The notes under the pieces are model-generated. The model did not search any database and was not told where the DNA came from. It worked only from the letters and a program-made list of their open reading frames with translations. Position numbers and translations under genes: made by a program. This document shows positions 6,937-20,178 of a stretch of 21,245 nt of DNA, one piece after another; the first letter of the stretch is position 1; each line of letters opens with the position of its first letter. This DNA is from a virus. The stretch lies in the IMG/VR virus record IMGVR_UViG_3300027833_000250, positions 1 through 21,245 of that record; one strand, 5' to 3'.

Positions 6937-7974
6937 TTAGGCTAAGTTGTAGTTTGCAGTGATAAGTCCTTCTGGACGAAGGATTTTTCTGCCGTATAAT
7001 TGCATCCCGCGGACGATGTCTGCGAAGGTATCTGGTGAGCGGAAGCTCTCAGTTTTTGCAATTTGGTCAGCTACTGCCACAGAGGAGTCATGGCCAGCAA
7101 CCAGAACACCAAAGTTCGTCGCAGAACCACTTGCCGAGCTCGCGCCAGCCCCAGTTCCCTTGTACGGAAGGTTGTTGCTTGTGTAGACGCGGAAGCCACG
7201 AATGGTGCCGGGCATACGACCGTTACGCACTTCGCCTTCTCCACCGAAGTCAGAATTAATCAGCTTCGCGTCTTCATCGAGCAAGATCTCTTTGAACACC
7301 GGGTCACATACGACCCAACGATTGTCTGTGTCCACGTTAGCTGCGTCCATTAGACGAGCCATGCGGTTTAGAACAGCCAAAGGTGAAGTCAAAGCACCAG
7401 CACCACCGCCTGCAGTTACAGGAATGGAGTTAGCTGCAGTGGAACCACCGAAGGCACCTTGTGTCAGCTTGTTAGCTGCAAGCAATTCGTCGTTGCCTGC
7501 GGCTGCATCTGCTTTTGTGCCTGCCGCTGCGGTACGAGCCACCCATGCAGAACCGTTCCAGGAGTAACCGGACATGTAGCCCAATACGTCTTGGTCGAAT
7601 GCATCACGCAGTTTGAAACCAGCACGGTCTGTTGCCAAATCAATGAAATTAATATGGCTATGTGCCTCTTCTATATCGTCGAGTGCGAACTGAAAGTAGT
7701 TGGCTTGATCGACGATCATTGTGAAATCGGAATCGGTGATATCTTGAGTCGCAAGTGTTGTACCACGTGCATAAGAATTGATAGTGATTTCAGGCTCTTT
7801 AATAATCTTAACACTGTCGCCCATGTTGGCGATCTCACCTGCGTAATCAGTGTTTGTGATGTCTTCTACAACGGAACTGTTGCGGAAAGCCTTCTGTACT
7901 TTTTTGGAATAGATTACAGGACTAAAGTTACCGTTTGGTAAATTGCCGTAACCGCCTGCTGATGGAAATGCCAT
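6937..7974 (-). CDS. Major capsid protein (HK97-fold), 345 aa
   Basis: The start is ATG at 7972-7974 with SD AAGGAGA 6 bases upstream. The open frame continues upstream but lacks an SD and runs through a hairpin. The N-terminus (MAFPSAGGYGNLPNG), then YSKKVQKAFRNSSVVEDIT (about 23-41), GEIANMGDSVKII (about 46-58) and YFQFALDDIEEAHS (about 92-105) match the coat proteins of many podovirus-like phages. A later block (NRWVVCDPVFKEILLDEDAK, about 221-240) corresponds to the body of the shell domain. No long cleavable propeptide is evident, which fits a separate scaffold gene just upstream. The gene has its own promoter, leader and 3' hairpin, as expected for the most abundant virion protein. Confidence 0.9.
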   Translation of the reverse strand: MAFPSAGGYGNLPNGNFSPVIYSKKVQKAFRNSSVVEDITNTDYAGEIANMGDSVKIIKEPEITINSYARGTTLATQDITDSDFTMIVDQANYFQFALDDIEEAHSHINFIDLATDRAGFKLRDAFDQDVLGYMSGYSWNGSAWVARTAAAGTKADAAAGNDELLAANKLTQGAFGGSTAANSIPVTAGGGAGALTSPLAVLNRMARLMDAANVDTDNRWVVCDPVFKEILLDEDAKLINSDFGGEGEVRNGRMPGTIRGFRVYTSNNLPYKGTGAGASSASGSATNFGVLVAGHDSSVAVADQIAKTESFRSPDTFADIVRGMQLYGRKILRPEGLITANYNLA

Positions 7975-8219
7975 TTTGTTTCTCCTTGTGAAATGGCGGA
8001 GCCGAAAAGGCTCTGGACAGAACACAGAAGGGGACAAACAGTGGCAGCATGGGTTTGAGGGTGCGCAGCTACATATCAGGCCGTGATATTATAGCTCCGG
8101 GCCTCTCCATTGCTGGTAGACTAGAACGTCTTTGATCTTCTGAATTTGGGAATGGTTGAGGGTAGACCTTGAAAGGTGGCCTCATGTAGTGATCAAGGGC
8201 TATTTAGCCTCTTATTGAC
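7975..8219 (-). promoter_or_regulatory. Long structured leader of the capsid mRNA
   Basis: About 245 nt separate the expected transcription start (near 8219) from the capsid ATG. Inverted repeats in order: GGCTA/TAGCC (8198-8209), ACCTT/AAGGT (about 8166-8177), and GAGCC-gaaaa-GGCTC (7999-8013) ending about 11 bases before the SD. No riboswitch class is recognised. The hairpins may protect the mRNA or tune ribosome loading. The leader also holds a 38-codon open frame, listed separately. Confidence 0.45.
8069..8185 (-). CDS. Possible 38-aa leader ORF (weak)
   Basis: An ATG-initiated frame of 38 codons (start MRPPFKVYPQPFPNSEDQ, end AIISRPDM) fills the centre of the capsid leader. It is Pro/Arg/Ser-rich. 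There is no convincing SD, and the length is within what chance allows. It could be an unexpressed frame or a leader peptide coupled to capsid expression. It is listed because it is the only sizeable ATG frame in this gap. Confidence 0.2.
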   Translation of the reverse strand: MRPPFKVYPQPFPNSEDQRRSSLPAMERPGAIISRPDM

Positions 8220-18229: not shown

Positions 18230-18463
18230 CTAGGACACGTAACTATCTGGGAGACCCATATTGTGATCAAAATCTTCGGTCACGCGAGATGCATCATCAA
18301 AGGTGAACATATCGCCGTAACCAGTAAACGTCTTAGCTTCCTCGTCAGCTTGCCGCTGCGTTATCAAACCTTCTTCAACAAGGTATGTACGAACTTCGGA
18401 GAGACTAAGGCGGATACCGGTGTTAGCCTCGATGGCTGCACGGATATAATATAAGTTGATCAT
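18230..18463 (-). CDS. Hypothetical acidic protein, 77 aa
   Basis: It is the first gene after the strong leftward promoter at 18480-18508. The leader is only about 10 nt, and the SD is weak (TAGG). The N-terminal half is helical (INLYYIRAAIEANTGIRLSL at 2-21, EVRTYLVEEGLITQRQADEE at 23-42) and looks like a small winged or HTH-like helical unit. The C-terminal half is Asp/Thr/Phe-rich (FTFDDASRVTEDFDHNMG). There is no membrane segment or Cys. I do not recognise the family. As the operon leader it could be a regulator or simply a conserved accessory protein. Confidence 0.65.
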   Translation of the reverse strand: MINLYYIRAAIEANTGIRLSLSEVRTYLVEEGLITQRQADEEAKTFTGYGDMFTFDDASRVTEDFDHNMGLPDSYVS

Positions 18464-18479: not shown

Positions 18480-18508
18480 ATTATCTCAAATTAAGCAATC
18501 AAAGTCAA
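18480..18508 (-). promoter_or_regulatory. Sigma70-type promoter for the small-gene/packaging operon
   Basis: On the minus strand TTGACT (18503-18508) and GATAAT (18480-18485) are separated by exactly 17 bases, with TGA ahead of the -10 giving an extended -10 (TGnGATAAT). The expected start is near 18473, about 10 nt before the 77-aa gene. It stands back to back with the plus-strand promoter, the two -35 boxes being 22 bases apart. It probably drives the leftward small-gene, terminase and portal genes. Confidence 0.7.
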
Positions 18509-18530: not shown

Positions 18531-18559
18531 TTTACAAAATGGGTAATCCATGATATAAT
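18531..18559 (+). promoter_or_regulatory. Sigma70-type promoter pointing right (candidate small RNA)
   Basis: TTTACA (18531-18536), a 17-base spacer and a perfect TATAAT (18554-18559) lie on the plus strand, where no protein gene follows. An inverted repeat CGAAC-ttagtt-GTTCG (18560-18575) begins right after the -10 and covers the start site, so it may be an operator. Confidence 0.7.
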
Positions 18560-18566
18560 CGAACTT

Positions 18567-18657
18567 AGTTGTTCGGGCCGGTATATATATAACCACCCTA
18601 CTAATCCTGTATTCAATCAAGCAGTCTGGCTTAACCGCTAGGCTGCTTTCTTATTTT
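18567..18657 (+). ncRNA. Candidate small RNA, about 90 nt
   Basis: The unit is bounded by the TTTACA-17-TATAAT promoter and by a strong intrinsic terminator. The only start-like codon gives a few residues before a stop (TTG...TAA within about 24 bases), so it does not encode a protein. Predicted by eye: a 5' stem (GGG 18575-18577 with CCC 18596-18598, and GGT 18580-18582 with ACC 18592-18594, capped by an AT repeat), then a single-stranded pyrimidine-rich linker, then the terminator stem. The 3' end is antisense to the last codons of the nuclease gene. Targets are unknown; both cis-antisense and trans roles are open. Confidence 0.55.
18619..18657 (+). terminator. Rho-independent terminator of the rightward unit
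   Basis: AAGCAGTCTGGC (18619-18630), a TTAACC loop and GCTAGGCTGCTT (18637-18648) form a 12-bp stem, two of the pairs being G-U, followed by TCTTATTTT. The two G-U pairs become A-C mismatches on the other strand, and the U-rich tail is only on the plus side. It therefore works for rightward transcripts, although it overlaps the stop of the leftward nuclease gene. Confidence 0.75.
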
Positions 18658-19084
18658 CTACTACACTCTTTAAGGCAGTCTCTAAGCTCGGGAATATCCA
18701 GCTCTCATTAAAACGATGGGCCTTAAGGATCTTCTTACCGCCTGCAGGTAGCTCACAGGTATCCATGAAATGAACACCTCCTATATCTAACGCTACTAAA
18801 GCATGTATGTCAGCTGACCGCTGGACATCAGAATGAATATGAAACCTGTATGAAGGCATGGTACAAGTAGAGCTCTGAACGTAAGGAATGTGGCAAGTCT
18901 TAACCTCACACGTAAACATCATACCATCAGATCTTCTGCACCAAAGATCACTACCAATACCTCTAATGATCTCTGTACCAATCCCGTACATTTCCAGGTA
19001 ATACGCGGCCAACAATTCGCCAAGCCGACCTGTCTGTCCTGTAGATATTTTATCTATCGTGTCTTGTGGAGGGAATAGGCTCAA
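18638..19084 (-). CDS. PD-(D/E)XK-type nuclease (Holliday-resolvase-like), about 148 aa
   Basis: The pattern TGRLGELLAAYYLEMYG, IGSDLW, and FTCEVKT shows the superfamily's catalytic set: Glu in the first helix, Asp of GSDLW, and the ExK pair of EVK. Numbered from the longest open frame these are Glu28, Asp51, Glu65 and Lys67. Size and layout fit small resolvase-like endonucleases that process branched or foreign DNA in phage replication. There is no ATG near the beginning. I chose TTG at 19082-19084 because it overlaps the upstream stop (TTGA) with GGGG about 8 bases before it; a TTG at 19099 would add five residues. The C-terminal half holds a Lys/His-rich beta-alpha end. The 3' end overlaps the plus-strand terminator. 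Confidence 0.7.
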   Translation of the reverse strand: MSLFPPQDTIDKISTGQTGRLGELLAAYYLEMYGIGTEIIRGIGSDLWCRRSDGMMFTCEVKTCHIPYVQSSTCTMPSYRFHIHSDVQRSADIHALVALDIGGVHFMDTCELPAGGKKILKAHRFNESWIFPSLETALKSVVENKKAA

Positions 19085-19398
19085 TCTAGATCCCCGCAAT
19101 CCAACCCATACATGTCTTCTAACGACGATGAGCTATCCTCGATCATCCTAGCAGCCTCTCTGGCTAGCTCTGAGTAACGATTAAACTCATGGGCCATGTT
19201 ATACAGAAACTGATAGTCTAGATCCTGCTTACCCTCTACCATCATTTCCTGGAATAACTCTTCGACGGGTACAGTCAGTTCGACAGGATCATTAGCATGA
19301 GCCTCGCCAGCGAATAACTGAAGCACCAGCCCGTCAGACTCATCAAAGTCTAGATAATGATCATACCGGATGATAAAACCTACGCTAACTTCACTCAT
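19081..19398 (-). CDS. Acidic hypothetical protein, 105 aa
   Basis: The frame opens upstream at a GTG (19422). The ATG at 19396-19398 (MSEVSVGFIIRYDHYLDFDE) is preferred because it overlaps the end of the Fis-like gene by 8 bases (ATGAGTGA), a common coupled arrangement. The SD is weak in either case. The protein is strongly acidic, with a beta-rich N-terminal half (VGFIIRYDHYLDF, LVLQLFAGEA) and a helical C-terminal half (VEELFQEMMVEGKQ, YNMAHEFNRYSELAREAARM) ending in an Asp/Glu/Ser-rich tail. No known domain is recognised. Acidic early proteins sometimes mimic DNA or inhibit host nucleases, but nothing here proves that. Confidence 0.65.
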   Translation of the reverse strand: MSEVSVGFIIRYDHYLDFDESDGLVLQLFAGEAHANDPVELTVPVEELFQEMMVEGKQDLDYQFLYNMAHEFNRYSELAREAARMIEDSSSSLEDMYGLDCGDLD

Positions 19399-19567
19399 TC
19401 TTACTGGCGATCCCATGTTCACACATCTTACGCCAAAGAGTGCAGTATCGGATGCCTAATGCTTCTGCAGTCTGCCAAAGCTTTCTGTCATGCTGTAGTT
19501 CTGAGATTAGTATAGCTTTCTCATGCTTCTTTAGTCTCTGGCGTAATGTATGTAATCTACGACCCAT
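19391..19567 (-). CDS. Fis-type helix-turn-helix microprotein, 58 aa
   Basis: The protein starts MGRRLHTLRQRLKKHEKAIL. The C-terminal two thirds read EKAILISELQHDRKLWQTAE followed by ALGIRYCTLWRKMCEHGI. This matches the Fis-type DNA-binding domain (HTH_8), in which a helix with W/AAxxLGI is followed by a turn and a recognition helix with TLxRKM. A basic N-terminal tail (Arg/Lys) could help DNA contact. The SD AAAGGAAAT is excellent. It is the first gene of the cluster with the acidic protein and the nuclease, after a 660-base gap. A transcription regulator of phage or host genes is likely. It is much smaller than Fis (98 aa) and lacks its dimer arms. Confidence 0.75.
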   Translation of the reverse strand: MGRRLHTLRQRLKKHEKAILISELQHDRKLWQTAEALGIRYCTLWRKMCEHGIASKNE

Positions 19568-19627: not shown

Positions 19628-20178
19628 TAGCCATGTAACCTAATCCTATGATATCATTACGTATTCAAGAATATAGGTGACAGTACAAATACCTCGGATA
19701 GCTTTGGGACTATGCTCGGCCCACTTTACAGTCCATATTTTCCTAAAATTGGGAGGGTGTTGTATACGGTACCGGTGGGAGGGGGGGTGGCACTCGCCGG
19801 GGTAAAATTTCAGCCTGGATCTGCCTTATTCTTATGATTAGCAGGCACCAGGATCCGATCAGTAGCACGGATAAAAGCTAAGCCCCAGGGAATGCATAAT
19901 AATCTCTTAAAAAGCTCATACCTACTTAGTCAGAGCTAAGGGAAATAGCTGCAAAGGATCCACCAGCTGAGCAATTATTTGATCCGCGTGACGTAAAAAA
20001 TAACCGGGCGAGGGGTGCCTTGTGATGCACCTATAACCATCCTCGATGTCGCCGGGTAACTGATCGGCCAGACATCCAGACAAGCCCCAGGGAAAGCCGG
20101 GAGAACATCCACCAGGCCAAACCAGGATCCAGGCCAGGCAATCATCCACCAGGCTAGCCGGGCAGCATAGCGCCGGAG

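Follow-up and report, generated by a model that had tools for sequence, protein, structure and literature searches.

The stretch of DNA analysed here (the window), a virus fragment of 21,245 bp, belongs to a CRP-3-like (HMO-2011-type) marine roseobacter phage. The region of interest lies between two leftward genes. The gene on the left (18230–18463, minus strand) encodes a conserved 77-aa protein that is 39–57% identical in CRP-3, CRP-738 and CRP-235; this protein gave no PDB or Pfam match above threshold and a weak sub-threshold winged-helix match. The gene on the right (18638–19099, minus strand) encodes a 153-aa protein that is PD-(D/E)XK nuclease-like by motif reading only. Between them, the plus strand carries a near-consensus sigma-70 promoter (18531–18559) with the highest promoter score of the window. 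It consists of a TTTACA -35 box (18531–18536), a 17-nt spacer and an extended -10 element, TGaTATAAT (18551–18559; TG at 18551–18552 and TATAAT at 18554–18559), and matches the consensus at 11 of 12 positions. From sigma-70 spacing, transcription would start at 18566–18567, 7–8 nt past the -10 box. Abutting the -10 box and spanning this position (-6 to about +9) is an inverted repeat, CGAAC-TTAGTT-GTTCG (18560–18575), which is followed by a G-rich patch, GGGCCGG (18575–18581), and by an easily melted TATATATATAA tract (18582–18592). A second promoter, TTGACT-17-(TG)aGATAAT (18480–18508, minus strand), stands back-to-back with the first and reads into the 77-aa gene.

The initial annotation had described the genome as otherwise leftward, which holds only within the window. 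Complete relatives have a rightward early arm, which in CRP-3 extends from 1 to 13.7 kb and encodes integrase, primase, helicase, DNA polymerase and ribonucleotide reductase; from 13.8 kb onward, a leftward arm reaches the right end. CRP-3-like phages carry genes for primase, helicase and DNA polymerase, and the CRP-3 annotation, in which most genes are hypothetical, lists neither an RNA polymerase nor an initiator protein. HMO-2011-type phages are reported to be a dominant and broadly distributed marine viral group, and CRP-3 to be capable of host integration (PMC9038755). A term search of genome papers on these phages returned no mention of promoters or terminators, which other literature may cover, and the passages available from those papers describe no replication origin.

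Conservation of the rightward promoter

Promoter-like sites with 9 of 12 matches were no more common in the window than in shuffled sequences (18 versus 16.8). Since a promoter scan alone therefore proves nothing, the case for the rightward promoter rests on its conservation. Relatives were gathered with the 77-aa protein encoded to the left of the element, and CRP-3, CRP-212, CRP-235 and CRP-738 were added. We found a plus-strand promoter at the equivalent position in 91 of 92 distinct upstream sequences, the sole exception (L024) having only a poor promoter match. The spacer was 17 nt in 72 of these relatives and 16 nt in 19, and 83 of the 92 contained the extended -10 TG. The main promoter finder gave a small bonus for a downstream TATA; a first-pass finder lacking this bonus identified the same sites in most sequences, its misses being mainly TATAAC or TAAAAC -10 boxes that were barred by its requirement for T at position 6. 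Thus, the TTTACA-17-TATAAT promoter of the initial annotation is present and positionally conserved. That annotation had named relatives devoid of promoter and stem as evidence against its proposal, and for the promoter the proposal survives this test.

Anatomy and repeat counts were obtained from 62 non-redundant sequences aligned at the -10 box. Purines peak at offset 6 (G 0.52, A 0.23), which likely marks the transcription start. Only the promoter and the first ~30 nt are conserved, as base composition is at background past about +30 (offset ~34; n=62). Pairwise segment identity was also considered as a measure of conservation and was dropped because the alignment was too permissive to discriminate. 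The same scan turned up no second site of similar quality in any sequence examined, CRP-3 (split into two pieces) included. The element is a conserved and apparently single site, and it stays in place while the gene to its right changes. The right-hand gene is nuclease-like in many relatives, HNH-like in some and DUF1127 in others, as if the region to the right of the element were a gene-swapping spot; of these labels, only DUF1127 was confirmed by a Pfam match, and the nuclease labels rest on motif reading and the CRP-738 annotation. Examples of the DUF1127 small-protein gene, which lies at this position in many relatives, are L002:6526–6669 and L003:6830–6973.

The same architecture was not found in HMO-2011, CRP-1, CRP-207 or the Rhizobium and Sinorhizobium relatives. 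In three pelagiphages of the wider group, HTVC033P (L168:1470), HTVC115P (L169:514) and HTVC104P (L170:723), a strong promoter on the opposite (minus) strand is followed by a G-run and adjoins the terminase small-subunit gene. As these promoters have no repeat at offset 0, homology to the element is only suggested.

The predicted transcript and the divergent promoter

In the window, the rightward promoter is followed by an intrinsic terminator (18619–18658, plus strand) consisting of a 12-bp stem (18619–18648), a 6-nt loop and a U-rich tail, TCTTATTTTC. The initial annotation had reported this terminator together with two G-U pairs in its stem, and both were found as described, with the G-U pairs forming solely when the sequence is read as the plus strand. 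Promoter and terminator positions predict a non-coding transcript of ~85–90 nt (18567–18657, plus strand) that folds at -25.2 kcal/mol (z -3.4). The terminator overlaps the stop codon of the leftward nuclease-like gene, and the predicted RNA overlaps the last ~20 nt of that gene in the window. Terminator hits in the window were no more common than in shuffles (12 versus 10.1). Among the 62 relatives, a plus-strand terminator within 170 nt was present in 18, compared with 1.1 in shuffled sequences and 3 on the opposite strand. Conservation across the phage clade strongly supports a predicted rightward transcription unit, in that its promoter occurs clade-wide; the RNA body that the initial annotation included in the unit is not conserved.

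One explanation of these features is a small antisense RNA, like OOP of phage lambda, that lowers the mRNA of the neighbouring leftward gene, or a phage small RNA that acts in trans. The complete unit in the window and the above-chance frequency of plus-strand terminators are consistent with such an RNA, for which there is a precedent: OOP RNA, transcribed from pO, shares an overlap of 52 bases with the end of cII (PMC5869508). As with OOP, a short terminated RNA would be directed against an operon and would overlap the 3′ end of a neighbouring gene. However, the overlap here spans just ~20 nt and involves different genes in different relatives, predicted RNA lengths vary and most relatives have no plus-strand terminator within 170 nt. 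A conserved overlap with the 3′ end of an opposing gene was not found, the right-hand gene being exchanged among relatives, and Rfam returned only sub-threshold matches for the predicted RNA at gathering and relaxed thresholds. From these data we consider an antisense or trans-acting RNA rather unlikely as the general function of the element. The suggestion in the initial annotation that the RNA is antisense to the end of the nuclease gene survives for the window, where an OOP-like effect on that gene is possible. Its suggestion of a trans-acting regulatory RNA is not well supported, and such an RNA is less likely than a cis-acting element.

The leftward promoter is also retained, with scores of 10–12 in 54 of the 62 relatives compared with 7–8 typically in shuffles. 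Its conservation raises another explanation, that the rightward promoter regulates the leftward one through supercoiling, polymerase competition or collision and has no role in RNA function or replication. Both promoters are conserved back-to-back with their -35 boxes 6–58 bp apart. Moreover, in the 48,423-bp contig that is near-identical to the window (G001/L085), the divergent pair accounts for the only two TTGACA-17-TATAAT sites at up to 2 mismatches, in a scan that gave more sites in other contigs and similar numbers with a reversed-pattern control. However, the spacing between the promoters is not fixed, and regulation of this kind leaves the inverted repeat, the G patch and the AT tract unexplained. 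We regard it as unlikely.

The start-site repeat, G patch and AT tract

In relatives, the 5′ arm of the inverted repeat begins at the very first base past the -10 box (offset 0). Pairing of at least 4 bp at offset 0 was found in 28 of 62 relatives, compared with 2.8 when the arms were permuted, and none of 5000 permutations reached this number. When one sequence was retained per distinct arm, 15 of 34 were paired versus 1.35 expected, which represents 15 different paired arms. The signal dropped sharply away from offset 0. A covariation score of 0.618, compared with 0.240 for shuffled and at most 0.239 for slid alignments, was obtained from 30 chosen rows, most of which had stems; the arm permutation over the 62 relatives is the unselected test. 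Whatever its purpose, a covarying repeat at the start site would constrain a sigma-70 promoter in an unusual way. In about half of the relatives, no repeat of at least 4 bp is present at offset 0, and the spacer between the arms varies from 3 to 8 nt. No repeat was found at the leftward promoter in any of 18 cases.

The arms are almost strictly Watson-Crick, as allowing G-U, A-C or A-G pairs added no more than chance. We attempted to assign the repeat to one RNA strand by comparing G-U with A-C wobble, and neither was enriched. Because a sigma-70 start falls 7–8 nt past the -10 box, the 5′ arm would not be transcribed. Thus, the 5′ hairpin that had been assigned to the RNA exists as an inverted repeat, although with one arm upstream of the start and outside the transcript. 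Strong covariation, strict Watson-Crick pairing and an untranscribed 5′ arm favor a constraint at the DNA level over RNA pairing, and point to a repeat that pairs in DNA. This reading is not certain, since the repeat lies farther downstream in several subclades, where it might be part of the RNA, as with GGC-GTTC-GCC in L132 and L144.

A palindrome over the start site might instead be the operator through which a phage repressor shuts off the rightward promoter, with the diversity of the arms reflecting immunity groups, and the reported ability of CRP-3 to integrate would be compatible with a repressor. However, a spacer of 3–8 nt would be unusual for a dimer, and further copies of the repeat were scarcely more frequent than chance (7 versus 3.1 expected at 28 loci) and absent from CRP-3; an operator is improbable. 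It is most improbable that the repeat is a weak terminator or processing hairpin of the leftward mRNA with the complement of the -10 box as its U-tract, for although it adjoins ATTATA or ATTTTA in the leftward reading, its stems are only 4–5 bp, the U-tract is interrupted, the terminator scan missed it and pairs that would wobble on the leftward strand are not enriched.

The two sequences downstream of the repeat are likewise retained. G is enriched at offsets 15–19, and the G patch (+10 to +15) contains at least 5 G in 7 nt in 33 of 62 relatives compared with 5% of random sites. The adjacent TATATATA tract (+15 to +28) persists in relatives, in which A and T dominate offsets 21–33; 37 of 62 contain TATATA or ATATAT, compared with 0.9% of random sites. 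Nearest-neighbour values place the AT tract among the least stable duplex DNA of its locus (median 1st percentile), whereas the G patch is only moderately favourable to R-loops (median 11th percentile). The promoter is thus directly followed by an easily unwound A+T tract, the promoter-plus-DUE arrangement of an origin. An RNA hairpin around the AT tract (GGG..CCC) was considered and rejected, as it was barely more frequent than in permutations (30 versus 21.5).

A candidate initiation and melting element

Conservation of the promoter and the first ~30 nt, the melting tract, the near-universal and apparently single-copy occurrence and the independence from neighbouring genes, together with a product that is not conserved, argue for a role in cis. 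The element looks more like a DNA switch than a gene for a regulatory RNA. Our tentative interpretation, which we hold to be possible and short of probable, is that CRP-3-like phages carry, once per genome, a cis-acting element for transcription initiation and DNA melting that would work like the origins of T4, at which host RNA polymerase opens the DNA or primes replication. The element is possibly the place where copying of the phage genome starts. In this model, host RNA polymerase would start at the rightward promoter and the start-site repeat would fold in the displaced non-template strand, while the duplex would be held open by rG:dC pairing in the G patch and by the weakness of the AT tract. 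The short RNA or the open region would then serve as a primer or entry point for the phage helicase, primase and family-A DNA polymerase. Where present, the terminator would keep the rightward transcript from running far into the leftward genes. We infer that a rightward R-loop would prime replication at the element. A more specific version, in which a compensatorily maintained DNA hairpin from the -10 box to about +9 blocks re-annealing of the bubble and so acts as the switch for a replication-priming R-loop, is doubtful.

The closest parallels are oriF (uvsY) and oriG of T4, which are ~100 bp long and contain a promoter with a sigma-70-type -10 box and an A+T-rich unwinding tract just downstream (PMC3016281). 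As at these origins, a promoter precedes an A+T-rich tract, and host polymerase would initiate for a phage replisome. The T4 promoters require MotA at -30, whereas the CRP-3-like element has a -35 box and a putative role in R-loop formation and replication. To our knowledge, T4 origins have no covarying start-site repeat or G patch. The primary origin of T7, a phage with its own RNA polymerase, primase/helicase and family-A polymerase, is similarly laid out, with a promoter followed by an A+T-rich segment; unlike in T7, the CRP-3-like promoter is of the host sigma-70 type rather than one for a phage polymerase. The early promoters of N4 likewise contain a small DNA hairpin, which lies upstream of the start and serves the virion RNA polymerase, whereas the CRP-3-like repeat follows a sigma-70 -10 box. 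If the more specific version with the DNA hairpin were correct, an abundant group of marine phages would use an ordinary host sigma-70 promoter as a replication-priming R-loop switch. The element is both short and conserved, it apparently occurs in a single copy, and the predictions of the model are directly testable.

Skew analysis lent no support to an origin: GC skew kept its sign across the element, 4-fold-site skew had the same sign on both sides (-0.18 versus -0.12), and the cumulative skew minimum of CRP-3 lies ~4–5 kb to the right of the element, near the point of gene divergence; these tests are weak, as the skew keeps one sign throughout the genome. Another conserved non-coding element was found in a long intergenic region nearby (window 19720–19810, minus strand; L001 ~7290–7385, L002 ~7640–7710 and L003 ~8050–8110), consisting of GTGCCA, a run of G or C, and GTACC..CGTATAC. 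This second element may serve in packaging or as an origin, and, contrary to our interpretation, it rather than the promoter element could be the origin. In HMO-2011, CRP-1 and CRP-207, a similar G-run and a TACGTATAC-like stretch precede the leftward operon. The window also contains a 58-aa open reading frame (19391–19567, minus strand) with a Fis-family HTH_8 match of 22.3 bits against a Pfam cut-off of 22 bits. Finally, CRP-3-like phages carry a GC-rich (57–60%) region of ~750–860 bp lacking annotated genes (L001:7080–7939 and equivalents).
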